From: Methylomonas sp. 11b
GTDB taxonomy: Bacteria > Pseudomonadota > Gammaproteobacteria > Methylococcales > Methylomonadaceae
Length of the DNA stretch: 64,000 nt
Reading direction: 5' to 3'
Assembly (NCBI RefSeq): GCF_000515215.1
Contig: NZ_KI911557.1
Coordinates: forward strand, 1,943,586-2,007,585
Part shown: piece by piece, positions 13,900 through 30,642 of the stretch
Numbering within the stretch: the first letter of the stretch is position 1
How the letters are laid out: each line of letters begins with the position of its first letter
The notes under the pieces: model-generated
Told to the model about the DNA's origin: nothing
The model's database searches: none
The model's input: only the letters and a program-made list of their open reading frames with translations
Program-made: the position numbers and the translations under genes

Positions 13900-13902
13900 C
13901 TC

Positions 13903-15093: not shown

Positions 15094-15096
15094 GAA

Positions 15097-17174: not shown

Positions 17175-17203
17175 TGTGATTTCTGTTGTTTGATCAGTTT
17201 TCG

Positions 17204-17327
17204 ACCCTACCCTGTCTTGGGAACGCCTATTCCCCTGCTGGGGAGTATGCCTCCGGGATCCAACCCATCACCGCGCAGGTGGGTTTATTTCTCACTTGTC
17301 GGGCGCGGCCAATTGGAGGATTTCATC
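17204..17327 (+). promoter_or_regulatory. Hairpin leader of ssb
   Basis: The inner stem GGGAA-cgccta-TTCCC (17219-17234) is flanked by CCC (17210-17212) and GGGG (17240-17243), the two-tier pattern seen before eleven other genes. A further hairpin AACCCA/TGGGTT follows near 17263-17286. The ribosome site GGAGGA (17315-17320) is 7 nt from the ATG. Unlike the others, I see no convincing helix hiding this ribosome site. Confidence 0.6.
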
Positions 17328-17768
17328 ATGGCAAGTCGTGGTGTAAACAAAGTCATATTGCTGGGCCGACTCGGCGCCGATCCGGATATTCGGTATTTAC
17401 CCAATAACGGCGGCAAGGTGGTGGCAATACGTTTGGCGACTAGCGAAGTCTGGAAAGACCAAGCTAAAGCCAAACAAGAACACACCGAGTGGCACCGGTT
17501 GGTGTTTTTCAAAAAACTGGCCGATACGGCCGAGCAGTATCTGCGCAAAGGCAGCAAGATCTATGTGGAAGGTAGTCTTCGCACCCAGCAATGGGATAAA
17601 AATGGCGAAAAACGCTACCGCACGGAAGTGGTTGTCCGTGAGTTACAGATGCTGGACCGTGCTGATGAAAACGGGGCTCCTCGTCACTCCAGTCAACCCT
17701 CTACACCGCCTACTGCGGCTAATGACGCAGGTTTGGATGAGGATTTCGATGACATTCCGTTTTTCTGA
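17328..17768 (+). CDS. ssb: Single-stranded DNA-binding protein
   Basis: The 146-residue protein starts at ATG 17328 after GGAGGA; an open frame reaches back to 17190 but crosses the leader. The OB fold is standard ([37 protein letters not shown], then [36 protein letters not shown]). The C terminus is the acidic protein-docking tip ending DDIPFF, one residue longer than the usual DDIPF. It coats single-stranded DNA during conjugation and recombination. It heads the ssb-bet-exonuclease recombination block found in SXT/R391 and IncA/C elements. Confidence 0.95.
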
Positions 17769-17850
17769 GTAGCTTTTTGCCCTTGTTATTCGCTATTCAG
17801 ATTGATCTTTAATTAACCCGCCTGGCAGCATCCGCTGTTTAGGTGTTTCA

Positions 17851-17914
17851 CCCCATGGGGACGTCACTCCCCAGATGGGGCATTGCGTCCTCTATTTTTT
17901 TAAGGAGACACGCC
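17851..17914 (+). promoter_or_regulatory. Hairpin leader of bet, occluding its ribosome site
   Basis: The outer CCCC (17851-17854) pairs with GGGG (17877-17880) around the inner GGGGA-cgtcac-TCCCC (17857-17872). A second helix, GCGT-c-CTC (17885-17892) with GAG-ac-ACGC (17905-17913), covers the AGGAG ribosome site and ends next to the ATG at 17915; a T-run forms its loop. Confidence 0.7.
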
Positions 17915-18979
17915 ATGAGCAATCAACCTCGCAATAATCCTGTAAAAACCCGCAATTTGCCAATGCCCATCGATGTCAATCAGGTCTATGGCATTTCGGA
18001 GCAGTCCTGGAAAGTCCTCACCGACGTGACGTTCCCAACCGCTAAAACCCCGGAAGCCATCATGATGGCGCTGGATTACTGCAAGGCCCGCAAACTGGAT
18101 ATATTCAAAAAACCAGTTCATGTGGTGCCGATGTGGAGTGCCGCCTTGGGTCGTAATGTCGAAACTGTCTGGCCGTCCATCATGGAAATCCAGACTACTG
18201 CGTCGCGTACCGGTGTTTGGGCCGGCATGGATAGACCGGTTTGGGGACCTGACATCACCAAGACCTTCACCGGCCGCTACAAAGACGACAACGAGCAATG
18301 GCAAGAATCCAGTGTCACCGTAACCTTCCCGGAATGGGTCGCGGTCACGGTGTACCGGATTGTTGGCGGCAAGCGCTGTGCATTCACCGAGGAAGTGTAT
18401 TGGCAAGAAGCCTATAGCACCGCCGGCGGTAAAAACTCACAAGTGCCTACGGCTATGTGGATCAAACGGCCGAAAGGTCAGTTGGCCAAGTGCGGTAAAG
18501 CCGCTTCGCTACGTGCAGCCTTTCCGGAGGAGTGCGGATACGCCGCCGAGGAAATGGATGGCAAAAGCATCGACGACATGAATGACAGCAGCGTGATTAA
18601 CGGCACTGCCAGTCGTATCGACGAAGCGGACGTTATCGATGATGCGATTGTCGGCAGCGTCGAACCACCGCGGGTGATTGATTTATCCATGATACCGCCC
18701 AAGGTGCAAAAAGCCGTCAGTGAACTGGTTAGGCGCACAGCACTTGCCGGCGCCTGGAAAGCTGCCTACGACTATGCCAATAACAAGTTTGTGGGACTGG
18801 ATCTGACCTATGCCATTGCTGAACTGGATAAAGCATCAGCGGTTGCCAAGACCACATCGGCTCAGGGTGATGTTAATCATCAGCCCCAAGACGCTTCTGG
18901 TATGCCACCCGCTCATGATCCGGCTTCGGAGGCGTTGAACAAGGCTCGCGAGACCTTGGGATCGACGCGTCAGTCATAG
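17915..18979 (+). CDS. bet: Bet/RecT-family single-strand annealing recombinase
   Basis: The 354-residue protein starts at ATG 17915 (AAGGAG at 8 nt). The N-terminal ~210 residues have the phage Bet pattern: EAIMMALDYCKARKLDIFKKPVHVVPMW, then VWPSIMEIQTTASRTG, and the AMWIKRPKGQLAKCGKAASLRAAFPEE block. It anneals complementary single strands and works with the exonuclease encoded two genes downstream. The C-terminal third is less conserved and acidic. SXT-type elements encode the same pair and use it to recombine with each other. It is a free-standing gene with its own leader. Confidence 0.92.
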   Translation: MSNQPRNNPVKTRNLPMPIDVNQVYGISEQSWKVLTDVTFPTAKTPEAIMMALDYCKARKLDIFKKPVHVVPMWSAALGRNVETVWPSIMEIQTTASRTGVWAGMDRPVWGPDITKTFTGRYKDDNEQWQESSVTVTFPEWVAVTVYRIVGGKRCAFTEEVYWQEAYSTAGGKNSQVPTAMWIKRPKGQLAKCGKAASLRAAFPEECGYAAEEMDGKSIDDMNDSSVINGTASRIDEADVIDDAIVGSVEPPRVIDLSMIPPKVQKAVSELVRRTALAGAWKAAYDYANNKFVGLDLTYAIAELDKASAVAKTTSAQGDVNHQPQDASGMPPAHDPASEALNKARETLGSTRQS

Positions 18980-19025
18980 CCGTTTTAGCTATCAACCGCC
19001 GGTAAATTGCCGGTGACTATTTTCA

Positions 19026-19100
19026 ACCCTACCTGGGCGTCCTGAATCGCCCTTGGGGTGAAATTCATGACGCCCTTTTTGTTTATGAGGAGATGTCATG
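19026..19100 (+). promoter_or_regulatory. Hairpin leader of the 110-residue gene, covering its start codon
   Basis: The outer ACCC/GGGT (19026-19029, 19056-19059) surrounds GGGCG-tcctgaat-CGCCC (19035-19052). CATGAC (19066-19071) then pairs with GTCATG (19095-19100), which contains the start codon itself and encloses the GAGGAG ribosome site (19087-19092). Confidence 0.7.
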
Positions 19101-19430
19101 AATGCCATTGATCAATCATCCAACCGCATACCGTGTCATACCGACTGGCATCGCTACGATTCACCCACGGTGATTCGCCGGCATGGCCGTGGTTACTTGG
19201 AGCGTAACTGGAGTCCGGGCAATCCTGTCCATGAAATCCAAGCGCCTACCAAGCCAGAACTGCAAAGTCTGGTCGAAAGCTATGGCGGTTTGGTCATGCC
19301 GACCCCCGATCTCGTGTTGCTGCTGTTTGCAGACTATCACTGGGCCCGGCGTTGTGAGAACCAACTCATCAAACGCGGCGTGTCGACACTGCGCCTAGGC
19401 TGCCATATCCAATTGCAGGAGTATCGGTGA
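19098..19430 (+). CDS. Hypothetical protein between bet and exonuclease
   Basis: The protein has 110 residues and I recognise no family. It is basic and aromatic at the start (DWHRYDSPTVIRRHGRGYLERNW) and has a mixed helix-strand pattern afterwards (PDLVLLLFADYHWARRCENQLIKRGVSTLRLG). The gene has its own hairpin leader and its stop overlaps the start of the exonuclease gene by one base (TGATG), so the two are translationally coupled. A role as exonuclease partner is possible from position only. Confidence 0.7.
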   Translation: MNAIDQSSNRIPCHTDWHRYDSPTVIRRHGRGYLERNWSPGNPVHEIQAPTKPELQSLVESYGGLVMPTPDLVLLLFADYHWARRCENQLIKRGVSTLRLGCHIQLQEYR

Positions 19431-20431
19431 TGAAAGTCATCAATGTCTCTCAGCGATCGCCGGAATGGCGGTTATGGCGTTCACAAGGGCTTAGTGCCAG
19501 TGAGGCGGCGATCATTATGAATCGTTCGCCGCACAAGACGCCTTGGCGATTGTGGGCCGAAAAGACTGGTCTCGTGCTGGAACAAAGCCTGGACAACAAT
19601 CCGTTGATCCGAGTAGGTATCGAGCAAGAACCAGAAGCCTTACAGCGCTTTGAAGATAAACACGATGTCATGCTGCTGCCCCTCTGCGGCGAATCAGATT
19701 GGTATTCGCTAATGCGGGCGTCCTTCGATGGTTTGTCGGAAAACAACGAACCGGTTGAAATCAAATGCCCGCATGAAACGACTTTTCTGGATGTGGTGCT
19801 AAACCGTGAGCAATCTGAAGCCTATCAACTTTACTGGTGCCAAGTGCAACAGCAAATGCTGGTGGCGGATGCACAGCGCGGCTTTTTGTTCTTCTATCAC
19901 CAAGGTCAGGATGTGGAGTTTGAGATCGAGCGGGATGAAGTCTTTTTAAACCGGCTCGTCGATACCGCCATGGAATTCTGGTCGAACGTCAAACAGCGAC
20001 AGGAACCCGAAAAAAATCCTGACCGCGATCTTTATCTACCCAAAGGCCATGCCGAACTGCAATGGCAGCAATTGGCGGCGAATTATCGCGACCATGCGGT
20101 AAAGATCGATGACCTGAAAGCTCAGCTCAAAGCGTTGGAAGCCACTCAATTCGACATCGAGCAAACCTTGGTGTTGTTGATGGGGGATTTCATGGCAGCC
20201 GAGCATTCTGGCTTACGTGTCAGTCGCTTTCAGATCCAAGGCAGTGTGGATTACAAAGCGGTGATGAAGGCCTTACTGCCGGATGTCACCGAAGCAATGC
20301 TTGACACTTATCGAAAACAACCGTCCAGCCGCATCCGCATAACCTGTCGGGATGACTCCGGCAGGCTGGCGGAAGTGCCTTTTGATGCTGACGCGTTGAA
20401 AGAGATGGTCGGTGCTGATTTCTGGTTCTGA
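19430..20431 (+). CDS. YqaJ/lambda-type exonuclease
   Basis: The 333-residue protein starts at ATG 19430 (a GTG at 19427 is the alternative). It has the YqaJ-family signature: RSPEWRLWRSQGLSASEAAIIMNRSP at the start, GIEQEPEALQRFE near residue 65, then SFDGLSE (Asp) and VEIKCP (Glu-x-Lys), which complete the PD-(D/E)xK centre, and YWCQVQQQMLV. It chews one strand of duplex DNA to make the tail that Bet anneals. It has no leader of its own and depends on the upstream gene. The protein ends in ADFWF, a tail shared with two other proteins of this module. Confidence 0.88.
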   Translation: MKVINVSQRSPEWRLWRSQGLSASEAAIIMNRSPHKTPWRLWAEKTGLVLEQSLDNNPLIRVGIEQEPEALQRFEDKHDVMLLPLCGESDWYSLMRASFDGLSENNEPVEIKCPHETTFLDVVLNREQSEAYQLYWCQVQQQMLVADAQRGFLFFYHQGQDVEFEIERDEVFLNRLVDTAMEFWSNVKQRQEPEKNPDRDLYLPKGHAELQWQQLAANYRDHAVKIDDLKAQLKALEATQFDIEQTLVLLMGDFMAAEHSGLRVSRFQIQGSVDYKAVMKALLPDVTEAMLDTYRKQPSSRIRITCRDDSGRLAEVPFDADALKEMVGADFWF

Positions 20432-20481
20432 TCTCGGGTTTTGACGTCAGTGAAGAAAATTTAGCTGGAAAACAGTTTGGC

Positions 20482-20580
20482 TGTTTCATTCGAAACACGC
20501 TGAATCCGGTGTGAACCGGCGTTCCGCTATCAGGCGGCATGAAGGTGAATAACGTTTATGTATCAGGTGCGTCAAGCCTG
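20482..20580 (+). ncRNA. Structured RNA element, copy 2
   Basis: P1 is TGTTTC-attc-GAAACA (20482-20497), P2 CCGG-6 nt-CCGG (20506-20519), P3 CCG/CGG (20524-20537) and P4 CAGG-TGCGTCAAG-CCTG (20564-20580). P1 differs on both sides from copies 1 and 3 and still pairs. The constant parts are CGTTCCG, GCGGC and the P4 loop. It lies directly upstream of the leader of the 73-residue gene, on the same strand. Confidence 0.72.
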
Positions 20581-20589
20581 GTTTGCAGT

Positions 20590-20653
20590 CCCGTCGGGGT
20601 TCATCACCCTAGCGGGTCATGGTGGCCCCTTTTATCAACAAAGGAGGTTCGCT
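20590..20653 (+). promoter_or_regulatory. Hairpin leader, ribosome site buried
   Basis: The outer CCCG/CGGG (20590-20593, 20613-20616) encloses GGGT-tcatc-ACCC (20597-20609). CCCCTTT (20626-20632) then pairs with AAAGG and, past a bulged A, GG (20640-20647), so the strong AAGGAGG ribosome site lies entirely within a helix. Confidence 0.68.
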
Positions 20654-20875
20654 ATGAATAAAGACTTTTGGAAATGCCTATTTTGCTGGTTGGAAACGGC
20701 CAGTGTGGACGAGATTAGAGATAAACAGCGTGTGGTTCGGCAGATGCTCGGTCAAACCCGAGATCCGGATTTCAAAGCCGACATTCGTCGTATTTTGCGC
20801 TTTATGGACGAGGAAATCCTCGCCCGCGCGGAATTGGCGAACCTGATGCGAATGTCAGTATCGATGCCTCGCTAA
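20654..20875 (+). CDS. Small hypothetical protein
   Basis: The protein has 73 residues from ATG 20654, which follows AAGGAGG at 6 nt. It begins MNKDFWKCLFCWLETA and continues as two amphipathic, charged helices (VDEIRDKQRVVRQML and DFKADIRRILRFMDEEILARAELANLMRM). I do not recognise the family. An upstream frame to 20558 is only the structured element read through. The element, leader and strong ribosome site support a real gene. Confidence 0.7.
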   Translation: MNKDFWKCLFCWLETASVDEIRDKQRVVRQMLGQTRDPDFKADIRRILRFMDEEILARAELANLMRMSVSMPR

Positions 20876-20950
20876 AGGTAGTTTTGACACCACTTTAACC
20901 TTTTATCGTTCAACGTACTAACCCCCTGGCTAGCCAGGAATTTATCTCAA

Positions 20951-21028
20951 CCCGACGGGGACACACTACCCGTCAGGGGAATGGTGCGCCTCGTGTTGCG
21001 GGTTTAACCCAAACATAAGGAGTTCACC
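20951..21028 (+). promoter_or_regulatory. Hairpin leader of the CobS-like gene
   Basis: CCC-GACGGG (20951-20959) pairs with CCCGTC-a-GGG (20969-20978), nine pairs with one bulge. Downstream, GGTG-cgc-CTC (20983-20992) can pair with GAG-tt-CACC (21020-21028), covering the AAGGAG site, with a small GGGTT/AACCC hairpin inside. A separate palindrome CCTGGCTAGCCAGG lies at 20925-20938. Confidence 0.68.
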
Positions 21029-21970
21029 ATGTATCAATCCTATTCGATTGCCGACACCTTCGGCATACCTGCACCGGTCTCCATGAAAGTGGAAGGCTTT
21101 ATCCCAGGACAAAACGCTTATGTCCCGGCGCAAAAACCCTATGTGTTTCGCAAGGATCATTTGCGCGACGTATTGGCGTTTTTAGGTTCTGCTAATGGTG
21201 ACGGCTTATATCTGACTGGTCCTACCGGTTCCGGTAAAACCTCGTTGTTGGAACAAGTCGCTGCGCGTCTCAATTGGGGTGTGCATTCGGTCACCGGCCA
21301 TGGTCGACTGGAACTCAACGATCTGCTCGGCCAATACATGCTGGTCGACGGCGGTGCGATGAAGTGGATCGATGGCCCCTTGACCTTGGCGGTACGCTTG
21401 GGCCATGTGTTGTTGATCAACGAAATCGATGCCATTGATCCCGCAGAGTTGATCGGCCTGAATGAAATCGTCGAAGGCAAGCCGTTGACGATTCCGCAGA
21501 CCGGCGATGTGATTGCCCCACATCCCAAATTCCGTTTGGTCGCCACCGGCAATAGTGCAGGTAGCGGCGATCAGTCGGGCTTGTATCAGGGCGTGTTACG
21601 TCAAAACCTGGCGTTTCTGGATCGCTTTCGTTTAATGGAAGTCGGTTACCCGGAGCCTGAAGACGAAATGAAACTGTTGGCCGATGTGGTGCCGAGCATG
21701 CCGGAAACGGTGCGCGAAAGCATGATCAAGGTCGCCAATCAGATTCGCAAGGTGTTTATCGGTGGTGTCGATGGTAGCGGTATGTTATCCGTGACCCTGT
21801 CGACCCGCGGTTTAGTGCGTTGGGCGTCATTGGTGGCCACCTTCAAAAGTGCGCCCAATGCCTTGGCCTATTCGCTGGATCGGGCCTTGACCTTCCGAGC
21901 CGAGCCCGCCGAACGCGAAGCGATTCATCGCATCGCCAAGGATGTGTTTGGCGATGACTGGCAGGTCTAG
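21029..21970 (+). CDS. CobS/MoxR-type AAA+ ATPase
   Basis: The 313-residue protein has Walker A GPTGSGKTS (near residue 66), Walker B LLINEIDAIDP (near residue 130), sensor 1 ATGNS (near residue 172) and an arginine-finger-like FLDRFR. The N-terminal VEGFIPGQNAYVPAQKPYVFRKD region is as in the CobS subunit of cobaltochelatase-like proteins carried by SXT/R391 and IncA/C elements. Such ATPases usually work with a VWA partner, here encoded three genes downstream, to remodel a client protein; the client is unknown. The next gene starts 2 bp after the stop. Confidence 0.88.
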   Translation: MYQSYSIADTFGIPAPVSMKVEGFIPGQNAYVPAQKPYVFRKDHLRDVLAFLGSANGDGLYLTGPTGSGKTSLLEQVAARLNWGVHSVTGHGRLELNDLLGQYMLVDGGAMKWIDGPLTLAVRLGHVLLINEIDAIDPAELIGLNEIVEGKPLTIPQTGDVIAPHPKFRLVATGNSAGSGDQSGLYQGVLRQNLAFLDRFRLMEVGYPEPEDEMKLLADVVPSMPETVRESMIKVANQIRKVFIGGVDGSGMLSVTLSTRGLVRWASLVATFKSAPNALAYSLDRALTFRAEPAEREAIHRIAKDVFGDDWQV

Positions 21971-21972
21971 TC

Positions 21973-22740
21973 ATGGCCGCCTGGAATCTCTATCGTCATC
22001 ATAACAGTGACGGCAGTTCTAAAGACTGGGCGGTCAGGAGTAACTCGGATGGCAGTATAACTACTCGTTGGGGCAAAACGGCAGATCGATTGCCGGGCGT
22101 AAGTAACCGTTACGGCCTGAAGCAACCCGACATCGAACGACAAAAACAGGCCAAAGGCTATGTGTTGGTCGCCGAGGTGGATATTGATGTTAACGGCAAT
22201 GTGGTGGTTCCGGGTAAGACTCCGGCAACGTCATCACAATTGCCTGAACCTGATGCAAATCCCGAGTCTGTGCCAGCACCGCCAGTCGAGGCACTTTATT
22301 GGACCATTGATTGCCATGCAAAGCAGTCTATCCGTGTGGAATTGGGTATCGAGATCGAGCGACTGATCGGCGTTATTCAATCGGTATCGGATCAGCAATC
22401 TAAGCCTGAACAAGACTGGGATGGTTGGCAACAATTGATTGATACCACCCTCAATGCTGAAACCTTTGAACTAAGTGGTCAGATCAAATCAGTGCATGGT
22501 GTTTTGCCCTGGCTGTTTTTACTGGCACTGAAAGCAAAAGGCTTTAAAGGCGCGGACATTGATATTGCCACCGAAACCGCCCGAGATCTCTCGGCCGATC
22601 TGAAAGCTGAACAGGACGTGCTGGCATTTTTCGGCACCGACCTCGACAGTATTCGTGAAACTGCTGAAATCTTAGGTCTACTCAAACCCCGATTAAATCT
22701 GGCAGCGGCCATGTCCGACACGGACGACTGCTGGTTTTAA
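21973..22740 (+). CDS. WGR-like domain protein
   Basis: The 255-residue protein begins with a WGR-like fold (WNLYRHHNSDGSSKDWAVRSNSDGSITTRWGKTADRLPG and KAKGY-type ending near residue 60), a module thought to bind nucleic acids. A proline-rich linker follows (residues 80-100), then a helical C-terminal half of unknown type. It is coupled to the CobS-like gene (2 bp) and has no leader of its own. The protein ends in DTDDCWF, resembling the acidic tip of SSB and the ends of two neighbours. Confidence 0.75.
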   Translation: MAAWNLYRHHNSDGSSKDWAVRSNSDGSITTRWGKTADRLPGVSNRYGLKQPDIERQKQAKGYVLVAEVDIDVNGNVVVPGKTPATSSQLPEPDANPESVPAPPVEALYWTIDCHAKQSIRVELGIEIERLIGVIQSVSDQQSKPEQDWDGWQQLIDTTLNAETFELSGQIKSVHGVLPWLFLLALKAKGFKGADIDIATETARDLSADLKAEQDVLAFFGTDLDSIRETAEILGLLKPRLNLAAAMSDTDDCWF

Positions 22741-22761
22741 CCCATATTGTTTTTTATTTAA

Positions 22762-22823
22762 CCCGAAAGGGGCGCATCGGCCCCAACGGGATGGGTGTGC
22801 CTCTAATTTTTTAGGAGGTTCCC
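22762..22823 (+). promoter_or_regulatory. Hairpin leader of the DUF3150 gene
   Basis: The outer CCCG/CGGG (22762-22765, 22787-22790) surrounds GGGGC-gcatcg-GCCCC (22769-22784). Then GGG-tgtg-CCTC (22793-22803) pairs with GAGG-tt-CCC (22815-22823), hiding AGGAGG and ending at the ATG. Confidence 0.72.
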
Positions 22824-24014
22824 ATGTCTCATGAAACGCAAGTGATATTAGATCGCGTGGTATTGGTGAAAGTCGAAGCCAATATCTACGGCGCACGCAA
22901 GAAACTGAAAAAAGAAGACCTGGTGCTGGCCGATGGTAGCAAATTGCCGCCGGAGGATTTAGCCAGCCTAGGCTCCAAACGTTTGCTCGATCCCGATAAG
23001 CTGACGGTATTCAACCGCCTGAAGAAAGAAGCTGAACGCATATGTTTGCGCGTCGGCACCCGCTTTCTGGGTGGTTTTGCCGTGCCGGTTGAGTCCGCAG
23101 CCAGCATTACTGCTGAACTCGAGCGCATTGCGCTGGATTTTGCAGCAGCTAAAACCGAGTTTATTGCCGGTTACGATGCGGCGGTCACTGACTGGGTGGT
23201 TCGCCATCCGGAATTTGCCGGCATCATCGAACAAGCGGTGGATTCAGTGGAGTTTGTCTCGACGCGACTATCGTTTGATTTTCTGGTGGTGAGTGTCGGT
23301 TTACCCGATAGCTTGCCGCCGGCGGATGTTGCACGTCTGGAAAGCAAAATCGGTTCACTCAGTGAGCAGATGTTCTACGAAATCTCCGTGGAAGCCAATC
23401 AACTCATCGAGCAGTCGTTGCTAGGTAAGGAGCAAGTGACGCGTAATGCGTTACGGCCGATTCGCCGCATGCGCGACAAGCTCGATGGGCTAGGTTTTCT
23501 GGATCATCGGGTCGCGCCGGTCGTCAGCACCATTGACGATTTATTGGCGAGAATTCCCAACAAAGGCGCTATTGAAGGCAGCATTTTGCAGGAGATTCTA
23601 GCCACGGCGATGCTGTTGTCCGATCCGGATAAAACCCGGCGGCACGGCGAAGGACTTTTGACGACTCAACCGCCCGTTGTTGAAGAGACTGAAGAAGTCA
23701 TCGAATACGCGGAGCCCGAGCCACCAGCAGTACTCGTCGCGCCAACAGCACCAACACCAGTCATCGCTGAAAGCGTTTCAGACACTCCCGATTTTACCGA
23801 TCTGTTTGATGGCATCTTTGATGATGAACTCGAAGCGGAATCGACAGCGGATAACTGGGCGCTTGAGGTCTTGCTGGATAAAAGTCAGACCGCTCTAAAA
23901 ACCGGTAACGATACCGATGAATCCAACCCTTCTGAGCATTCAGCAGAACCTGAAACGGTGACTGCGGGAGACGATGAGGAGGCGGACGATTCTGACCAGG
24001 ACTACTGGTTCTGA
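22824..24014 (+). CDS. DUF3150 family protein
   Basis: The 396-residue protein matches the DUF3150 pattern at its start (VILDRVVLVKVEANIYGARKKL, then KRLLDPDKLTVFNRLKKEAERICLRVGTRFLGGFAVP). It is mostly helical up to about residue 280, then a Pro/Glu/Ala-rich disordered tail leads to a very acidic end (DDEEADDSDQDYWF). DUF3150 genes sit between CobS-like and VWA genes in conjugative elements and may link the ATPase to its partner. The function is not known. The AGGAGG ribosome site is 6 nt from the ATG. Confidence 0.82.
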   Translation: MSHETQVILDRVVLVKVEANIYGARKKLKKEDLVLADGSKLPPEDLASLGSKRLLDPDKLTVFNRLKKEAERICLRVGTRFLGGFAVPVESAASITAELERIALDFAAAKTEFIAGYDAAVTDWVVRHPEFAGIIEQAVDSVEFVSTRLSFDFLVVSVGLPDSLPPADVARLESKIGSLSEQMFYEISVEANQLIEQSLLGKEQVTRNALRPIRRMRDKLDGLGFLDHRVAPVVSTIDDLLARIPNKGAIEGSILQEILATAMLLSDPDKTRRHGEGLLTTQPPVVEETEEVIEYAEPEPPAVLVAPTAPTPVIAESVSDTPDFTDLFDGIFDDELEAESTADNWALEVLLDKSQTALKTGNDTDESNPSEHSAEPETVTAGDDEEADDSDQDYWF

Positions 24015-24035
24015 TCTGACGCCATTTAACTATTC

Positions 24036-24098
24036 ACCCACTGGGGCAAATTCATGTCCCTCTGGGGTCGTGGTTTGCTCCAACTTTTGGAGCAAACC
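24036..24098 (+). promoter_or_regulatory. Hairpin leader of the VWA gene with a 12-bp stem over the ribosome site
   Basis: The outer ACCC/GGGT (24036-24039, 24065-24068) surrounds GGGGCA-aattca-TGTCCC (24043-24060). GGTTTGCTCCAA (24072-24083) then pairs perfectly over 12 bases with TTGGAGCAAACC (24087-24098). The GGAG ribosome site is inside this stem and the start codon follows at once. It is the strongest such structure in the window. Confidence 0.8.
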
Positions 24099-25913
24099 AT
24101 GAAAAATAGAACCTTACACCACGCATTTCCCATCGTCGCGGCGGCCATTGGCAATCGCTTTGGCATTAAAGTCTGTGTCGGCGGAGATCAAGCCGAAACC
24201 GATGGCCAAACCATTTGGCTGCCGGCCTATGAGGGCGACGATGCGGATTATCAGGATTACGCCTGGGGGCTATTGGCTCATGAAGCCGCGCATATTCGTT
24301 ATTCGGATTTTACGCTGCGCTATGGCAGTTCGGTATTACGGCGGCGCTTATGCAATGCGATTGAAGATGTCCGTATCGAGCACGAACTGGCCAAGGACTT
24401 TCCGGGTACCAGGCTGACGATACGCACGGTGATTGAAAAGATGATTGCCAAAGGCGACTTTGTGGCCAACAGCATTGATGATCATCCGGCCAATATCCTC
24501 TATAGTTTTGTCTTGAAAAGTTTGCGTGCCAGGGTGTTGGGTCAAACGGCCTTACTGCCTTTGGTCGAGCAAACCGAAATGGCGCTGAAGGCAAAGTTTC
24601 CGAAAGGTGCGGTGACCCGGCTGAAAGGCTTGTTGTCCGAAGTGCCGATGGGTTTGCAGTCTGAATCCGATTGCCTGCAATTGACTGATCGCATCCTGAC
24701 CATGATTGAGCAGGAATTCGAGCAACAACGGCAGCGCAATCAGCAATCGGCAGATGATGGAAACACCCCTGAACCGGATGATACGGATCAGGATACTGAA
24801 TCAGCCGATTCGGACGATTCGAATGGCTCGGATTCCCAGGATGAAATGGAGCCCAATGAACGATTGCCCGCCGACACTGACGACGATCCGTCATCAGCAT
24901 CGGCGGGTAGCGATGATTCAAATCCGGAAAATCCTGACGATGAGCCGACAACGCACTCCGATAACAATTCATCCAACCCACAAGGGGATGCTGAAGAGGT
25001 CACGGAAATTGCCGACCCGATGGGCATCTTACAAACCCTGTTGTCCGCTGGTGACAGTGACATCGAGCAAGACCTTTTCGAATCGCTGAAATCCGCGTTG
25101 TCGTTGGCAGCGGAAAACGCATCGGAACTGCTGATGCCCAGTGGCATCGAGCCGCCTATGGACGATCGGGCGGGTGCGTTTTTGCTGCGTAAGGTGCAAA
25201 GCGAATCGGGGAAAATCCGTGCTGCTCTACAAGGCTTGGTGCAATCGCAAACCATCAACCGCTCGCAACACGCATGTCGTGGACGTCGGATGGATGGCAA
25301 GCGTTTACACCGCTTGCCACTGGGTGAAACCAAACTGTTTCAGCGCAAAGAGATCAAAGCGTCACCCAATACGGCCATTCATCTGTTACTCGATAAATCC
25401 GAAAGCATGGGTTATCAGGTCACCGATAGCCAAGGTCAGTCCGTTGGATCACGAATGCCAATTGCGTTGGAAGCGACCTTGGCACTGGCGTTGGCCTTTG
25501 AAGGCATTCCGGGGGTTAACCCTGGCGTGACTGCGTTTCCAGGCCATCAAAACGATTCGGTATTCCGATTACTGGAGCATGGCCAACGCGTGAACGCCCG
25601 AACCGGCGCCTTTTCGCTAGCCGCTACGGGTAGTACGCCGATGACCGAAGCGATTTGGTTTGGTGCGGCGTCGCTGCTGCGTTGCCGGGAACCGCGCAAG
25701 GTATTGATGGTAATGACCGATGGTCAACCCAACGATACCTTGAGCACGCTGGATATTTTGCAGCGTTGCCGGGATAGCGGTATTGAAACGGTCGGCATTG
25801 GTTTGGGGCTGGATGTCAGTCATCTATTCCCGATTGCCATTACCATCAACGAGCTTCAGGAGTTGAGAGCGCAATTGTTCGATCTCTCGAAAGCGGTGTT
25901 GTTGGCGGCCTAA
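24099..25913 (+). CDS. CobT-like VWA protein with an HExxH motif
   Basis: The 604-residue protein starts at ATG 24099; the frame is open to 24054 but crosses the hairpin. Near residue 60 is LLAHEAAHIRYSDF, a zinc-protease-like HExxH motif (His61, Glu62, His65). A very acidic Ser/Asp/Asn linker spans about residues 215-305. The C-terminal VWA domain has the MIDAS motif DKSESMG and later MTDGQPND. VWA proteins pair with MoxR/CobS ATPases, here encoded upstream. The HExxH motif suggests a metal-dependent peptidase or a metal site, not shown. A 350-bp spacer follows. Confidence 0.82.
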   Translation: MKNRTLHHAFPIVAAAIGNRFGIKVCVGGDQAETDGQTIWLPAYEGDDADYQDYAWGLLAHEAAHIRYSDFTLRYGSSVLRRRLCNAIEDVRIEHELAKDFPGTRLTIRTVIEKMIAKGDFVANSIDDHPANILYSFVLKSLRARVLGQTALLPLVEQTEMALKAKFPKGAVTRLKGLLSEVPMGLQSESDCLQLTDRILTMIEQEFEQQRQRNQQSADDGNTPEPDDTDQDTESADSDDSNGSDSQDEMEPNERLPADTDDDPSSASAGSDDSNPENPDDEPTTHSDNNSSNPQGDAEEVTEIADPMGILQTLLSAGDSDIEQDLFESLKSALSLAAENASELLMPSGIEPPMDDRAGAFLLRKVQSESGKIRAALQGLVQSQTINRSQHACRGRRMDGKRLHRLPLGETKLFQRKEIKASPNTAIHLLLDKSESMGYQVTDSQGQSVGSRMPIALEATLALALAFEGIPGVNPGVTAFPGHQNDSVFRLLEHGQRVNARTGAFSLAATGSTPMTEAIWFGAASLLRCREPRKVLMVMTDGQPNDTLSTLDILQRCRDSGIETVGIGLGLDVSHLFPIAITINELQELRAQLFDLSKAVLLAA

Positions 25914-26049
25914 ATCACCGCCAGTCAATTATCCGTAGCCCAATCCTTAGGTCATAACCTAAGCGATTGTGGCTATGGGTAGCTGATTGTCTCCAGGTTT
26001 GTCGAATGCACTCACTTCCTAGAGCTCATTCAACAAACAGACATTTCAT

Positions 26050-26147
26050 GCGTTCTTTCCAGAATGCTGAATCCGACTTTGGTCGGCGTTCCGTCTTTAA
26101 GCGGCGAGCACGTTAAACCGTGATCGTGTCGGGTGCGTTAAGCCCGA
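26050..26147 (+). ncRNA. Structured RNA element, copy 3
   Basis: P1 is GCGTTCT-ttcc-AGAATGC (26050-26067, one G-T pair), P2 CCGA-6 nt-TCGG (26073-26086), P3 CCG/CGG (26091-26104), an extra helix CACG-ttaaac-CGTG (26109-26122), and P4 TCGGG-TGCGTTAAG-CCCGA (26129-26147). Relative to copies 1 and 2, both P2 and P4 change on both strands and keep pairing. It fills most of the 350-bp spacer after the VWA gene. Confidence 0.74.
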
Positions 26148-26184
26148 TGTAAATCGCAGAGGTATTCACCCCTGCAAATCTAAA

Positions 26185-26263
26185 ACCCGCTTCGGGCGAC
26201 CATCGCCCGGCCGGGTGCTGTTCATTCGAAGTGCTTTCTTAAATTTTATAAAGGAGAACTTCA
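26185..26263 (+). promoter_or_regulatory. Hairpin leader of the membrane-anchored gene
   Basis: The outer ACCCG/CGGGT (26185-26189, 26212-26216) surrounds CGGGCG-accat-CGCCCG (26193-26209). GAAG-tgct-TTCT (26228-26239) can pair with AGAA-CTTC (26255-26262), which overlaps the end of the AAGGAG site just before the ATG. Confidence 0.68.
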
Positions 26264-26800
26264 ATGAACTTTATCTTCGGCATCATTATTTTGGCGATGT
26301 TTATTCTCGCCTTGCGAGTCCTTTGGGCAACGGCGTTGCAAATGTTTAATGCTTTGAAACATGCGTCTCAAACATTTCGCAGCTATCAAAGCAAGCGCCA
26401 ATCGCGAAACCGATTACCGGTGATCATGTCCAGCATCCGTCATGAGGTGGATTGGTTGGCCCTATCGGATTCGGTGCGACAGGAAATTCATAGTCGCAAC
26501 GCAGGCTCCAATCGGCAAGTTGATCGATTGGATGAGGAGTTGCAGGTAAAAACCAAAACCATGGAACTGATCAAGGCCGATATTCAACTTGCCAAGTTGC
26601 AGCTGGAATTGGAAAAAGTCAGGCCAATGGCAGCTTTAGATGAGTCGAAAGCCGGTAAACCGACAAAACGCTCGAAAAAAGCTACTTCGGTGATGGATCA
26701 TGATTTATCAAAATCATCCCATCCTGTACGCCAATTACGGACTGCTCTCAAGTCTGGCAATGGCCTGGTGATTCAGGCTAATGAGCTTGCCCACCATTGA
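26264..26800 (+). CDS. Hypothetical membrane-anchored coiled-coil protein
   Basis: The 178-residue protein begins with one membrane segment (FIFGIIILAMFILALRVLWATAL, residues 3-25). A basic stretch follows (SYQSKRQSRNR), then a helical, probably coiled region from about residue 85 to 125 (LDEELQVKTKTMELIKADIQLAKLQLELEKV) and a Lys/Ser-rich tail. I do not recognise the family. The ribosome site AAGGAG and the leader support the start. Its 3' end overlaps the convergent gene by 23 bp. Confidence 0.72.
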   Translation: MNFIFGIIILAMFILALRVLWATALQMFNALKHASQTFRSYQSKRQSRNRLPVIMSSIRHEVDWLALSDSVRQEIHSRNAGSNRQVDRLDEELQVKTKTMELIKADIQLAKLQLELEKVRPMAALDESKAGKPTKRSKKATSVMDHDLSKSSHPVRQLRTALKSGNGLVIQANELAHH

Positions 26801-27155: not shown

Positions 27156-27260
27156 GGCTCGTTCTCTGCTTTTTAAAGAGTTTTAGCCACCATATACCGT
27201 TTTTTGCGCGAATTCAACCCCGCTGTGCGAGCCGATTTTCGGCTTTATTCAGCGATTTTT

Positions 27261-27319
27261 ACCTGCGGGAACCTCATCCTGCCGGGTGGTCGTTCCTGCA
27301 TTTTTTGGAGGACATGACC
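27261..27319 (+). promoter_or_regulatory. Hairpin leader of the zinc-ribbon gene
   Basis: The outer ACC/GGT (27261-27263, 27285-27287) surrounds GCGGGA-acctca-TCCTGC (27265-27282, one G-T pair). GGTC-gt-TCCT (27288-27297) pairs with AGGA-cat-GACC (27309-27319) over the GGAGG site and ends at the ATG; TTTTTT lies in the loop. Confidence 0.72.
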
Positions 27320-27982
27320 ATGAAAAAAATCAACCAATCCAGCAGTGGCACAACCCCTGCCGAAAACAGCGCGGTTCGCTATCTGAATCAATACCGCTGC
27401 CCTTACTGCCAAACCGAATGGGAGGATGTATGGGATTGCGGCTGTAACGATCGCTGCCCGGACTGCAACAAGGAGATCGAGCCTTATGAAAGCGCATTGA
27501 TCGAGGGTGAGTCGGCGGAAACCGAATTGCCAGTCGAAGAACCCGCCTCAGCCAATGTCACGGCGGCTGGGGTTAATCGGTTCTTCGTAGTTTCCTACGA
27601 AATCGACTATGTGCACCGGGTGTCGGTGGGTATTACCGCGGATAGTCCCGAAGCGGCACAACAGATTGCCGAGCAGGCATTCAATGATGCCAGCATTTGG
27701 GACGACACCGCTGCTATGCCGTTATTGTCCGATGAATACCATGAAGTGGAGGGTGAAAGCTTGGTCTGGGAATGCGTTGCCGTTGCACAGTTTCCGGAAC
27801 CGGATTATTCGGTACGGCAATTGAAGAAAGAGCAAGCGGCCATGAGGGTTTGCCGAGGTTTGGTTGAAGCCTATCAACAAGGCGAAGCCAACGGCGGCAG
27901 TATCGATTGGGACGATTTGGATCAGTTGATTCCTGTGGCATTGCAAGCCTTGGGAAAACCTGCACTGGAAAACAAATCCTAA
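27320..27982 (+). CDS. Zinc-ribbon hypothetical protein
   Basis: The 220-residue protein starts at ATG 27320, 8 nt from GGAGG (an ATG at 27314 is too close). An N-terminal zinc ribbon is clear: CPYC near residue 28 and CGCNDRCPDC near residue 41. A linker rich in Glu and Pro follows, then a FFVVSYEIDYVHRVSVGITADSPEAAQQIAEQAF domain that resembles small sensor or adaptor folds. I cannot name a family. The ribbon suggests nucleic acid or protein binding. It is set apart by its own leader. Confidence 0.72.
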   Translation: MKKINQSSSGTTPAENSAVRYLNQYRCPYCQTEWEDVWDCGCNDRCPDCNKEIEPYESALIEGESAETELPVEEPASANVTAAGVNRFFVVSYEIDYVHRVSVGITADSPEAAQQIAEQAFNDASIWDDTAAMPLLSDEYHEVEGESLVWECVAVAQFPEPDYSVRQLKKEQAAMRVCRGLVEAYQQGEANGGSIDWDDLDQLIPVALQALGKPALENKS

Positions 27983-28063
27983 AAAATAGTGCGTCGTTCA
28001 GACGCGTAATTCGTAAATGCCTGAGTTAGCCAAGTCATTCGATTCGGTGCTTATTTTTATCCA

Positions 28064-28129
28064 CCCACACGGGAATGTCCTATTCCCGCAGGGGAATCGT
28101 GATGTTTCCGTTTTTTTGAGGACAACATC
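28064..28129 (+). promoter_or_regulatory. Hairpin leader of the 166-residue gene
   Basis: CCC/GGG outer pairs (28064-28066, 28091-28093) surround CGGGAAT-gtcct-ATTCCCG (28070-28088). GATGTTTCC (28101-28109) then pairs with GGA-c-AACATC (28120-28129), nine pairs with one bulge, over the GAGGA site and up to the ATG. The loop is a T-run. Confidence 0.75.
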
Positions 28130-28630
28130 ATGAACTCACACATCTTTGAACACACCTTCAGCACAGGTCATTGCATCCAGTATCAGCGTTTGCCATCCGG
28201 CACCTGTTATCACGCCGACACACCGGAACCGGTGGTCGAGTTGTTGGAACAGCTTCGCCATAGCCGGCGCAAAATCCGGCTGTATTACGGCGATCCAGCT
28301 ACCGGTCAGTCCTGGCTCGATGAACACGATGTCATCGGCTGGATTGGCCGCTCGACCGGTACGATCAAAGTGCTGCTATTGATCGAACCCGGCGACATTG
28401 GTGGTCCGGCCTTGCTGGATCAGTGCATCGTTCGAATCGACAGCCCACGCCAGGTGCTTTACCAACATGATGATTTTCGGGTTGGCGAGGTGGAACTGGT
28501 TAGAGGTGAGCTTAAACGCTTGCCCTGGGAAATCTGGATCGACGGCAGCGTGCATGCCCGGTTCAAGGCAAAAAATGAAGCCCGGCAGTATCAGGACTTC
28601 ATTCAAGGTAAGCGGTTTGCGTTGATCTGA
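28130..28630 (+). CDS. Hypothetical protein of the mobile-element backbone
   Basis: The protein has 166 residues and I recognise no domain. It is strand-rich, with KIRLYYGDPATGQSWLDEHDVIGWIGRSTGTIKVLLLI in the middle and a C-terminal RLPWEIWIDGSVHARFKAKNEARQYQDFI block. No signal or membrane segment is present, so it is probably cytoplasmic. It lies between the zinc-ribbon gene and the methyltransferase-like gene, has its own leader and is followed by a probable terminator. Confidence 0.72.
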   Translation: MNSHIFEHTFSTGHCIQYQRLPSGTCYHADTPEPVVELLEQLRHSRRKIRLYYGDPATGQSWLDEHDVIGWIGRSTGTIKVLLLIEPGDIGGPALLDQCIVRIDSPRQVLYQHDDFRVGEVELVRGELKRLPWEIWIDGSVHARFKAKNEARQYQDFIQGKRFALI

Positions 28631-28650
28631 CGCGCCGTTTGATTTCGACA

Positions 28651-28677
28651 CTCGGTTAAACCGAGATTTTTTATTTT
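28651..28677 (+). terminator. Probable intrinsic terminator
   Basis: CTCGG-ttaaa-CCGAG (28651-28665) is followed by ATTTTTTATTTT. It lies 20 bp after the 166-residue gene and directly before the next leader hairpin, so the DUF4942 gene may be partly separated from upstream transcription. Confidence 0.7.
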
Positions 28678-28679
28678 AC

Positions 28680-28744
28680 CCCTGCGGGATGATTCTATCC
28701 CGCCAGGGATAAATCGGTCGTCAGGGGATTCTTTGGAGTACACC
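28680..28744 (+). promoter_or_regulatory. Hairpin leader of the DUF4942 gene
   Basis: CCCT-GCGGGAT (28680-28690) pairs with ATCCCGC-c-AGGG (28697-28708), eleven pairs with one bulge and loop gattct. The second helix is weaker here: GGT/ACC with ATTC-tttg-GAGT near the start codon. The TTTGGAG ribosome site is 7 nt from the ATG. Confidence 0.65.
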
Positions 28745-30508
28745 ATGACAGACCCTTATCAATATTACCCCACGCCAGAAGCACTGAGTCGTAAAGCTTG
28801 GGAGATGTTCAAGAACCAGCAATTCGCTCGGGTATTAGAGCCTTCAGCAGGCGAAGGACATTTGCTTCGTCCAGGGCCATACCAGTACGGTAAACGTTTG
28901 CCGATCGATTGCATTGAAATCGATATCCGCAAACACGCGGTTCTGCGCGATGAAGGTTATGCGGTGGTAGGGATGGATTTTCTGCAGTTTCAAAGCGGCA
29001 GTGTCTATTCTCACATCATCATGAATCCGCCGTTTGCCGAAGGCGCCAAACACGTGTTGAAGGCTTGGGAGATATTGTTTGACGGTGAAATCGTCGCCAT
29101 TCTCAATGCCGAAACCGTGCGCAATCCGTTTTCGAAAGAACGCCAGCTGTTATTACGGTTGATCGAGCAGCACGGCGAGGTCGAGTTTCTGCAAGAAATG
29201 TTCGCCGGCGAGGATGCCGAACGCAAAACGCCGGTCGACGTGGCCCTGATCTGGTTGAAAAAAACTTCGACGTTCGAACAGGACATCCTCGGCAGTATTC
29301 TGGACGATTTGCGCCAGGATAGGCGGGAGGCCGACGATTTAGCGGGCGAATTTCAACTGCCCCATGAGCTGGCCTTGCCGAATGCCTTCATCGATAACGC
29401 GGTGTTGATGTTCAATGCCGCGGTCGAAGCAGCGCGACAGGCCGTGGTCAGTGAAGCCCGAGCCAGCCGTTATCGAACCATGCTGGGCAAAACGCTCGGC
29501 GAACTGAGCGGTGGCGGTATCAGCAGTGAAGACGAGTCGTCTTCGGATGCGGTGAAACTGACACTGTTTAAACGCTATCACGATCTGAAGAATCGGGCCT
29601 GGGCCAGCATCTTACGCTCGACACAGGTCACATCACGCTTGTCATCGGCAGCGCAGAAACGCTTGGAGTCAGATTTCGAAACGGTGAAGTCCTTGGAATT
29701 TACCGTGCCGAATATCTATGGATTTCTGCAAGGCATCATCGATCAGCAAGGTGAAATTCAACTGAGCATGGTGTGCGATGTGTTCGATCTGATCACCCGC
29801 TATTACAGCGATAACGCGGTGTTTTACATGGGCTGGAAATCCAATGACAAACACCGCACGCTGGGCATGCGGATCAAAACCACTCGGTTCGTTCTACCAG
29901 GGCACAAAGTTGAGTCGTACCATAGTAGTCTGAACTGGGAGTCAGAACGGCTGTTAGCGGATTTCGACAAGGTGTTTGCCTTGCTCGATGGTAAGACCGA
30001 AGCGGAAGTGAGTTTGGTGTCGGTGTTTCGACAGCATTTTCACGCGCTTCGGGTTGGAGAACGGATAGGCGGCAGTTATTTTGACGTTCGCTATTATCCG
30101 GGCGTCGGCACCATTCACTTTTTTCCGAAAAGTAAAACCCTGATCGACCGGATGAACCGTTGGGTTGGCCGCCAGCGCCGCTGGTTACCGCCCGTGGATA
30201 CGCAAGCCGGTCATGGTTTCTGGCAGCAGTTCGACCAGGCAGAGAACTTAGATCGGGCGTTTCACACCGAAGTGAACAAGCAGTGTCCACGCAGTAGCCG
30301 GCATGTCCATTTCGATCCCTTTTGGGCGATCAAGCACGGCGGCGAGTCGGAACGGGAAAAAGGTCATTGTCTGTTAACCCAGGCGATGAGCAGCGTATTG
30401 ACCAGCCGAGGCATCGATCCCGATGCGGTATTGGAAAACGAACAATCCAGCTTGTTGGAATGGACGGGCTCCCTACCATCGACTACAGACCTGGCTTTGG
30501 CATCGTAA
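28745..30508 (+). CDS. Methyltransferase-like protein with DUF4942 region
   Basis: The 587-residue protein starts at ATG 28745. Its N-terminal 180 residues have the pattern of an adenine N6 methyltransferase: YYPTPEALSRKAWEMF, the cofactor site VLEPSAGEGHLL, the IDCIEID strand, and the catalytic motif NPPF (IIMNPPFAEGAKHV). The rest matches the DUF4942 type, a long helical region followed by NAVFYMGWKSNDKHRTLGMRIKTTRFVLPG. It probably methylates element DNA, for example against restriction; the target is unknown. It is preceded by a terminator and its own leader. Confidence 0.8.
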   Translation: MTDPYQYYPTPEALSRKAWEMFKNQQFARVLEPSAGEGHLLRPGPYQYGKRLPIDCIEIDIRKHAVLRDEGYAVVGMDFLQFQSGSVYSHIIMNPPFAEGAKHVLKAWEILFDGEIVAILNAETVRNPFSKERQLLLRLIEQHGEVEFLQEMFAGEDAERKTPVDVALIWLKKTSTFEQDILGSILDDLRQDRREADDLAGEFQLPHELALPNAFIDNAVLMFNAAVEAARQAVVSEARASRYRTMLGKTLGELSGGGISSEDESSSDAVKLTLFKRYHDLKNRAWASILRSTQVTSRLSSAAQKRLESDFETVKSLEFTVPNIYGFLQGIIDQQGEIQLSMVCDVFDLITRYYSDNAVFYMGWKSNDKHRTLGMRIKTTRFVLPGHKVESYHSSLNWESERLLADFDKVFALLDGKTEAEVSLVSVFRQHFHALRVGERIGGSYFDVRYYPGVGTIHFFPKSKTLIDRMNRWVGRQRRWLPPVDTQAGHGFWQQFDQAENLDRAFHTEVNKQCPRSSRHVHFDPFWAIKHGGESEREKGHCLLTQAMSSVLTSRGIDPDAVLENEQSSLLEWTGSLPSTTDLALAS

Positions 30509-30556
30509 TTCGGCGTTAGACCGGCCTTTAACTTAACCACTGGCCTAGCCAGTATC

Positions 30557-30642
30557 ACCCGCCTCGGGGAGATGATCCGTTCTCCCCGTCGGGGTTGGAC
30601 TGTGTCGTGTCCTCGGGGCTTTTTTATACCTGGAGATAACAC
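30557..30642 (+). promoter_or_regulatory. Hairpin leader of the GHKL ATPase gene
   Basis: The outer ACCC/GGGT (30557-30560, 30592-30595) surrounds CGGGGAGA-tgatccgt-TCTCCCCG (30565-30588), the longest inner stem of the set. GTGT-c-CTC (30607-30614) pairs with GAG-ata-ACAC (30633-30642) over the TGGAG site. A further ACTGGC-cta-GCCAGT hairpin lies at 30539-30553. Confidence 0.74.

Follow-up and report, generated by a model that had tools for sequence, protein, structure and literature searches.

The question raised by this locus is why a hairpin of one design should recur ahead of gene after gene in a recombination module. The locus lies within a 64,000-nucleotide stretch of DNA (positions 1,943,586-2,007,585 of the 5.41-Mb chromosome of Methylomonas sp. 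11b; the whole stretch is referred to as the window), which holds part of a conjugative element. The module runs, in order, through genes for ssb, RecT, exonuclease (YqaJ), CbbQ-type AAA ATPase, DUF3150, VWA/CobT, DUF4942 and GHKL ATPase. A preliminary description had drawn attention to twelve two-tier hairpins, made of an outer CCC/GGG stem and a variable inner stem, in front of those genes of the module that have a spacer of their own. We consider it probable that each of these sites belongs, as its 5' half, to a two-state translational switch that acts in cis and is about 70-90 nt long.

The sequence at the twelve coordinates is as described. The shape of the hairpin proves nothing by itself, because a loose pattern (CCC, 0-6 nt, a stem of at least 4, a loop of 4-12, the returning stem, 0-4 nt, GGG) is matched 31 times on the plus strand of the window and 23-50 times in 20 shuffles of it, so that this pattern was rejected as evidence. 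The features that do not arise by chance are the placement of the hairpins, their conservation and what comes 3' of them. When two further copies of the module from the same genome and 28 regions from related genomes were examined, most of the orthologous leaders, among those listed, were found to have this hairpin too, at comparable distances and with stems whose two sides change together; before the GHKL gene, for example, CGGGGAGA/TCTCCCCG in one leader stands against TTGGGGAGA/TCTCCCCAA in another. Some of the relatives' rows have no hairpin, above all those of ssb and of distant GHKL homologues. As had been noticed, the exonuclease gene (19430) and the gene at 21973 have neither spacer nor leader; the label "WGR" given to the latter is unconfirmed, no Pfam domain being found in its product.

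Side-by-side comparison of the leaders revealed that the preliminary description, correct as to the hairpin, had caught only the 5' half of the element. The inner hairpin is formed by two segments, A and B. Just 3' of it lies a third segment, C, that is complementary both to A (the 5' arm of the hairpin and its loop) and to a fourth segment, D, made up of the Shine-Dalgarno (SD) sequence and the AUG. A has B and C as alternative partners, and C has A and D. Segment C is pyrimidine-rich, with the consensus CAUGGUGUCCCC, and D has the consensus GGAGAnACACCAUG. In the DUF3150 leader of the window, GGGGCGCATC can form 10 bp with GGTGTGCCTC, and in the VWA leader C pairs with the SD and the AUG at -24.7 kcal/mol. 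The consensus of 108 leaders reads TTAACCC-nnnn-GGGG...TCCCC-nnn-GGGG-nCnTGGTGTCCCC...TTTT...GGAGA...ACCATG.

The covariance test against shuffled alignments that had been proposed was applied to the same 108 leaders. The percentage paired (72.2 versus 68.8) and the covariation score (0.172 versus 0.132) were reached by none of 500 shuffles, and all slid registers were lower on both counts, but two other measures were less clear: the number of pairs changed on both sides was reached in 66 of 500 shuffles and that of further pair types in 11 of 500, a slide of -1 equalling both. An alignment of the hairpin alone was weaker (5/500, 8/500 and 140/500). These MAFFT-based structure counts are less telling than the swap tests below because of errors in the A:C register. 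The claim that pairing is kept while sequence changes holds for the inner stems but not for the outer CCC/GGG, which is nearly invariant and does not covary. The existence of two partners for each CCC and each GGG run would perhaps explain why the outer stem hardly covaries; it also weakens the idea, considered earlier, that a protein reads CCC/GGG. The unpaired A before CCC is kept in 105 of the 108 leaders. Overall, these data support the view of a repeated structured element of RNA type, its pairing kept through sequence change and its occurrence tied to the genes with spacers.

Two covariance models were used to ask where such leaders occur. Model R1 describes the hairpin only and was built with 49 of 52 hairpins. 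In the window its plus-strand matches at E<=0.08 took in ten of the twelve sites, all ten being among its training rows, and it gave E 2.7 and E 4.3 for the two sites outside training, 17204 and 27255. In the whole genome (150 of 263 candidates scored), all 13 matches at E<=0.1 fell inside the three copies of the module (C1 72-89.5k, 321-338.5k and 1961-1974k), a result that speaks for specificity and not for sensitivity because the ten window hairpins were training rows. Model R2 describes the full leader (hairpin and C:D helix, A:C being excluded) and was built from the 108 leaders, chosen from 117 candidates of which nine were omitted by eye. R2 matched eleven of the twelve window sites at E<=0.01, each match ending on a start codon. 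Six of these are training rows; the other five (20583, 20945, 26180, 27256 and 30552) scored between E 1.2e-7 and E 0.010. The twelfth site claimed, that of ssb at 17204, fits badly (E 0.93 for the match at 17199). R2 found 29 matches at E<=1 in the genome (150 of 490 candidates scored), 27 of them in the three modules and the other two at E 0.16 and 0.37. The possibility that the same hairpins occur at random genomic places, named in advance as one that would undo the preliminary description, is not borne out by either search. The Escherichia coli plasmid pKFu015 provides a natural comparison, a DUF3150 module without R2 leaders: no match at E<=0.1 was found there, despite the presence of RecT, exonuclease, MoxR, DUF3150 and VWA genes. 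No R2 match at E<=0.1 was found at the bet gene of a lambda prophage either.

Since A, C and D are all compositionally biased, partners swapped between leaders were used as the control for their pairing. In a first test, with 281 leaders of hairpin score at least 18 and A defined as the inner arm plus loop (ssb, exo and the 21973 gene excluded), eight of eleven gene sets favoured their own C (mean z -1.7 to -2.7), and C:D, measured in crude windows, gave z from -2.39 to -0.06 across the gene sets. The segment boundaries were then extended so that A began with the outer arm. In 132 leaders defined in this way, A:C came to -18.1 kcal/mol for own and -11.6 for swapped partners, and C:D to -14.1 and -9.8. 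This set was drawn from the best 150 of 169 R1 matches, after removal of those without an open reading frame (ORF) start, those with the start outside 24-52 nt and minus-strand echoes, and includes loci that supplied R1 training rows. Reduced to 36 non-redundant leaders, it yielded z -14.3 for A:C and -8.8 for C:D, neither preference being reached in 20,000 permutations; for C:D in these 36 R1-found leaders the means were -13.34 kcal/mol (own) and -9.49 (swapped; 0/20,000).

An independent set came from 20 newly found regions, in which similarity to the training leaders does not exceed 0.71 for any leader and no blastn match of at least 90% to the named loci occurs. Of the best 150 of 166 R2 matches in these regions, 147 terminate in ATG, and 144 are continued by an ORF that has 40 or more codons or is still open where the stretch stops; the 148 with a start codon were kept. 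A:C, which is outside the model, was again gene-specific: -18.55 kcal/mol with the own and -12.60 with the swapped partner (0/20,000, n=148), z -15.0 in the 44 non-redundant leaders and z -24.9 in the 146 leaders below 0.7 similarity. In 130 of the 148 leaders, the own partner also did better than partners from other genes of that locus. The C:D swap was also carried out on the sets of 148 and 44, C:D being there a part of R2. Moreover, the apical-loop nucleotides, which are unpaired in A:B, pair with C in larger number when C is their own (4.07) than when it is swapped (3.07; 0/20,000). Each gene has, from the C:D swap, its own segment complementary to the SD/AUG, unevenly from gene to gene in the first test, and, from the A:C swap, the loop test and the folding described next, a mutually exclusive helix that frees the SD and would have the role of the on state.

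Partition-function folding predicted that the two arrangements are exchanged according to whether D is present. In the 148 leaders cut before D, the nucleotides of A were paired with C at 0.51 and with B at 0.12; A:C exceeded A:B in 116 of 148 leaders, compared with 103 of 444 when C was swapped, and the CCC of B paired with the outer 3' GGG at 0.30 (0.09 with swapped C). With D present, A:B returned to 0.38, C:D stood at 0.57 and A:C won in just 20 of 148. In the set of 36 leaders, A:C exceeded A:B in 35 without D and in 6 with it. Nine of the eleven window leaders flip to the A:C hairpin when D is absent, and ten of the eleven hide the SD/AUG in the full fold. Because the flip depends on the leader's own C, A:C appears to be a selected own-partner state and not merely a consequence of C resembling B. 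In minimum free energy folds of the full leaders, the SD-AUG is at least 50% paired in 32 of 36, compared with 92 of 180 when the upstream part is shuffled, and in the same 36 leaders about 8 kcal/mol is needed to open it; the off state is for these reasons the predicted end state. In an earlier calculation that forced B to be unpaired, A:C equalled or surpassed A:B in stability in only 12 of the 36. Unconstrained ensemble folding gives the opposite (35/36; 116/148), and the timing model was reinstated on that ground. What sequence and computed folding establish is the gene-specific A:B, A:C and C:D complementarity, the position before start codons and the flip with D.

A scheme that would accommodate these data has two folds. 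In the first, A and B would pair as inner arms, the outer ACCC/GGG would close the two-tier hairpin, and C would cover D, so that translation would be off. In the second, the SD-like A would pair with C and B would fold onto the outer 3' GGG, giving one long hairpin in which D is free and translation possible. The second fold would be preferred before D has been transcribed and the first one afterwards, so that a freshly made message may be open to translation at first and then close. As an alternative to timing, a factor may bring the message back to the second fold. In either case, the A:C fold should be the on state because it leaves the SD/AUG free, and we infer that it is so in the cell, set by timing or by a trans-acting factor. 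The more ambitious proposal, that the leaders form a large family of metastable switches, one per gene, in IncC plasmids and in conjugative elements found across many Gammaproteobacteria and in a few lineages besides, with A:C forming first and the SD being hidden later as the start site is transcribed, is offered tentatively and appears to us less likely to be right than wrong. Opening by the ribosomes of the upstream gene was considered too; it is not a general solution, because the distance from upstream stop to hairpin ranges from 22 to 461 nt in the window.

Several observations weigh against the two-state switch. The ssb leader of the window fits both models badly, as seen above. In the first swap test, the own C was not favoured for the 26264 gene (z +1.0), the preference was weak for DUF3150 (z -0.70) and DUF4942 (z -0.59), and the crude-window C:D was close to zero for DUF3150, the 28130 gene, DUF4942 and GHKL (z -0.06 to -0.31). 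The leaders of the 20654 and 26264 genes do not flip, and that of DUF4942 keeps the A:C fold with D present. The flip is itself a product of equilibrium folding and not of kinetics. Finally, the complementary strand shows a preference for own partners too (A:C -15.34 versus -10.12, C:D -13.53 versus -9.81 kcal/mol), and the G-U asymmetry expected of an mRNA (56/434 versus 17/386 in A:C) is partly shared by swapped pairs (0.188 versus 0.097). The wobble asymmetry, at one point taken as proof of RNA, was downgraded for these last two reasons, and the strand is argued mainly from the position of the leaders before start codons.

To these points must be added a run of TTTT between C and the SD in 80 of 132 leaders (AAAA occurs there in 5 of 132), for with such a run 3' of it the second fold looks like an intrinsic terminator. 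This makes transcription attenuation a serious rival wherever a U-run lies 3' of C. The A:C hairpin with its U-run would terminate transcription, A:B would act as antiterminator, and C:D would be at most a second gate. The long A:C-closed hairpin predicted in nine window leaders without D has a T-run within a few bases in several of them, 61 of the 71 leaders with GC below 0.55 contain TTTT, and the R2 consensus itself reads CCcUUUUUUUUaGGAG. The run is, however, far from general, being found in only 6 of 29 GC-rich leaders (GC at least 0.62); C also covers the SD/AUG, which a terminator would not need, and a terminator ahead of each of a dozen genes would starve the distal ones. We regard attenuation of transcription as the less probable explanation, although one to be reckoned with.

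It seems improbable that the element is a static insulator, whose hairpin and C:D helix would do no more than hold translation at a constant low level, A:C being a by-product. When D is present, the fold in which the SD is hidden has an advantage of about 8 kcal/mol, no trigger was found, and "attenuator" is the term used for a likely relative of these leaders in the excerpted text of a review (PMC4542580; see below). Nonetheless, A:C reaches into the apical loop beyond the swapped controls and the flip is specific to the own C, and a static C:D helix needs neither the loop extension nor the flip. Very improbable is a role as structured single-stranded DNA used in conjugative transfer, as proposed for the STAXI repeats, instead of RNA: the module does lie in conjugative elements, beside ssb and recombination genes, and the complementary strand pairs almost as well, but the element ends on start codons, contains the SD and is lacking from the spacer-less genes. 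Double-stranded operator palindromes for a DNA-binding regulator such as an FlhDC-like activator, suggested by the near-palindromic inner stems and the FlhD/FlhC-like genes downstream, are the most remote explanation of all, in that the stems vary by gene and yet pair, also with two further segments, whereas a DNA-binding protein would need constant half-sites.

We now return to the putative switch and describe its copies in the window, all on the plus strand, with A:C and C:D as duplex energies in kcal/mol. The ssb leader (17199..17330; start codon 17328) is divergent and longer; its two-tier hairpin lies at about 17204-17243, and a C-like stretch at 17238-17257 can pair with the SD/AUG at 17312-17329 (-12.3). 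The recT-like gene (start 17915) follows a leader at 17845..17917 with the hairpin at 17851-17879, A at 17856-17871, C at 17878-17893 and D at 17902-17915 (R2 57.6 bits, E 7.2e-13, training row; A:C -17.1, C:D -11.0). The gene at 19098 (110 aa) has its leader at 19021..19100, with A 19034-19047, C 19062-19078 and D 19086-19100 including the AUG (E 2.7e-7, training row; A:C -19.2, C:D -12.2). That of the 20654 gene (73 aa), one of those that do not flip without D, occupies 20583..20656, with A 20595-20607, C 20617-20633 and D 20639-20656 (E 2.1e-4, not training; A:C -14.6, C:D -16.5). The CbbQ-type AAA ATPase gene (start 21029) is preceded by a leader at 20945..21031 (A 20951-20971, C 20978-21003, D 21012-21031; E 1.2e-7, not training; A:C -21.1, C:D -15.2), and the DUF3150 gene (start 22824) by one at 22756..22826 (A 22767-22782, C 22789-22805, D 22813-22826; E 3.5e-10, training row; A:C -21.1, C:D -16.3). 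The VWA/CobT-type leader (24031..24101; start 24099) contains A 24041-24057, C 24068-24084 and D 24086-24101 (E 1.6e-11, training row; A:C -17.4, C:D as given above).

In the leader of the 26264 gene (178 aa; 26180..26266), C, at about 26214-26241, pairs with the outer arm and the internal loop besides the inner arm (E 0.010, not training; A:C -15.8, C:D -10.3); A:C limited to the inner arm is what failed the swap test, and this is the second leader that does not flip. Next come the leaders of the 27320 gene (220 aa; 27256..27322, with A 27263-27276, C 27289-27301 and D 27305-27319; E 8.4e-4, not training; A:C -15.8, C:D -12.8) and of the 28130 gene (166 aa; 28058..28132, with A 28068-28081, C 28097-28112 and D 28119-28132; E 1.2e-11, training row; A:C -13.4, C:D -13.8). 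The DUF4942 leader (28673..28747; start 28745) has A at 28679-28699 including the outer arm, C at 28707-28730 and D at 28728-28745 (E 9.1e-6, training row; A:C -19.7, C:D -9.7). Unlike those of the other ten, its SD is predicted to be mostly open when the leader is complete, and this leader may be on by default. The last one, before the GHKL ATPase gene (start 30643), lies at 30552..30645, with A 30560-30577, C 30600-30620 and D 30628-30644 (E 6.9e-4, not training; A:C -26.6, C:D -14.5).

A second structured element, of about 110 nt and separate from the switch proper, is present three times on the plus strand: 5' of the ssb leader (17064..17176), directly 5' of the 20583 leader (20471..20583) and 5' of the 26180 leader (26037..26149). 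It comprises several hairpins, including a conserved GGTGCGTYAAGCC hairpin, and is found also in relatives such as L049, L080, L089 and L097. Among 24 distinct copies, 12 of 24 predicted pairs are changed on both sides, and no Rfam match to it was found in the window, L080 or L089. It is a candidate for a separate family of RNA (or single-stranded DNA).

Around the module, the window contains genes of an F-type type IV secretion system (TrbC, TraU and TraN; 7-4717), type I restriction-modification genes (5224-11743, plus strand), with a gene for a YhcG-type nuclease between the methylase and specificity genes, and a cluster resembling a cyclic oligonucleotide-based antiphage signalling system (CBASS; 12202-16149, minus strand) with a DncV-like nucleotidyltransferase, a patatin-like phospholipase and an E2/ThiF-type protein. 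On the 3' side of the module are two consecutive FlhD/FlhC-like pairs (33491-34730 and 34634-35836, plus strand). Activators of this type (SetCD/AcaCD) are what drives bet/exo in SXT and IncA/C elements, as stated in the sections available of PMC4207636 and PMC4542580. Just 3' of the FlhD/FlhC-like genes, three tRNA genes (36283-36602, minus strand) possibly mark the end of the island. The RecT gene has three copies in the genome, one of them interrupted by an internal stop. The DUF3150 protein of the window is 100% identical to a protein of Methylomonas sp. LW13 and 72-93% identical to those of many other Methylomonas loci; related genomes have up to five DUF3150 places each, fragments among them.

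The distribution of the leaders extends well beyond Methylomonas. DUF3150 relatives with their flanks were taken from 65 named loci, none of which supplied R1 training rows. In the 37 loci searched, R1 gave 258 matches at E<=1 (minus-strand echoes included), and 34 of the 37 had at least one; they include Methylobacter, Methylocaldum, Marinobacterium, Thiohalocapsa, Lamprocystis, Pseudomonas and two deltaproteobacterial records. With R2, matches at E<=1e-3 were found in 48 of 370 genomes sampled from the class (46 of 273 genera), and matches at E<=1e-4 in 23 of 397 sampled from the phylum, three of these outside the class; both samples include the Methylomonas sp. 11b genome and have a few others in common, with no more than 13 and 12 candidates, respectively, scored per genome. 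In one genome (G277), matches of equal score (42.9 bits) at C2:1502750, 3136386 and 3491154 suggest duplicated elements. A DUF3150 relative occurs in 1,148 of 72,556 plasmid records, none of them over 80% of its length, and none was found in viral contigs.

Plasmids brought the leaders closer to a system already described. The IncC plasmid pEA1509_B has 20 plus-strand R2 matches at E<=0.1 in a 28.8-kb stretch, ten of them training rows, in front of an AAA gene, ssb, bet, exo, DUF3150, VWA and others, including genes of unknown function. Its bet leader, which is not a training row, scored E 5.6e-11. The bet leaders of five plasmids of differing distance, namely IncC, IncA, Edwardsiella, Vibrio and pT413A (L129 and L167 to L170), all match R2 and are all predicted to fold into a hairpin and an SD/AUG helix; four hairpins are two-tier, and that of Edwardsiella is continuous. 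The IncC plasmid is resembled by one of Pseudomonas putida, and a Photobacterium damselae plasmid has weak, AT-rich leaders of similar layout ahead of many genes, with four R2 matches at E<=0.1.

The preliminary description knew of no named RNA family for the hairpins, and indeed no Rfam match was found, but one member seems to be known, as the "translational attenuator" of bet in SXT. In the portion of PMC4542580 available, a strong translational attenuator 5' of bet in SXT and IncA/C plasmids, credited to Garriss et al. 2013, is said to impede the translation of a message whose transcription is high. The gene and the kind of module are the same, and the IncA/C bet leader has the A/B/C/D layout. 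The attenuator, however, is described there for one gene, whereas we find eleven leaders in the window and some 20 in the IncC stretch, gene-specific and with the alternative A:C. The likeness rests on the sequences of IncC/IncA-type plasmids and on the review's remark, SXT being known here by description: its own sequence was not found among the E. coli matches listed (the best 30 of 6075 and 60 of 106; the one followed up was a prophage). As far as the sections available go, two SXT papers (PMC4344509, PMC2786100) contain no passage on a hairpin or leader, and activation of bet/exo by AcaCD in IncA/C is described without either (PMC4207636). In the open-licence literature, the remark in the review's excerpted text was the only relevant passage on such leaders that was found.

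No Rfam 15 family reached its gathering score in the window or in seven relatives, and the two matches at E<=5 between 16900 and 33500 lay far below it. The specific comparison that had been suggested, for instance with the DUF3577 motif, likewise an upstream element in conjugative elements according to the preliminary description, yielded no match in the module at the gathering score or at E<=5; the presence of that motif among the 4227 families is unconfirmed. STAXI (RF01728) shares with the leaders the occurrence of structured repeats near ssb and DNA-handling genes; it is presented in the parts of Weinberg 2010 at hand (PMC2864571) as a tandemly repeated pseudoknot, often with UUCG loops, listed for Enterobacteriales. 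The leaders differ from this account in being one per gene, composed of hairpin and SD helix and ending on a start codon, and they do not match the Rfam model.

As a kind, the SD-sequestering translational leader is already known. Translational riboswitches and leaders with anti-SD and anti-anti-SD segments control access to the SD by mutually exclusive helices; in contrast to riboswitches, no conserved aptamer is seen here beyond A-CCC/GGG, and each gene has its own switch sequence. The leader of the phage MS2 maturation gene is translatable only while newly made, its transient fold giving way later to a closed start site. Here a transient fold is predicted, and it would recur before each gene of the module. 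What is unusual about the leaders is that they span a whole module, one per gene and with gene-specific sequences, and that they combine a predicted flip with a wide spread.

Since the IncC plasmid has the leader before ssb, bet and exo, the element bears on the way conjugative elements hold back their recombination genes. If the metastable family is real, the messages of the recombination module would be translatable briefly once made, or would need a common factor to reopen them, and every gene would carry its own SD-mimicking sequence. The segments give exact base-pair predictions for a reporter assay. The leaders would constitute a new and widespread RNA family, through whose folding conjugative elements control the genes of a whole module one by one, and the known bet attenuator would be one case of a general system.

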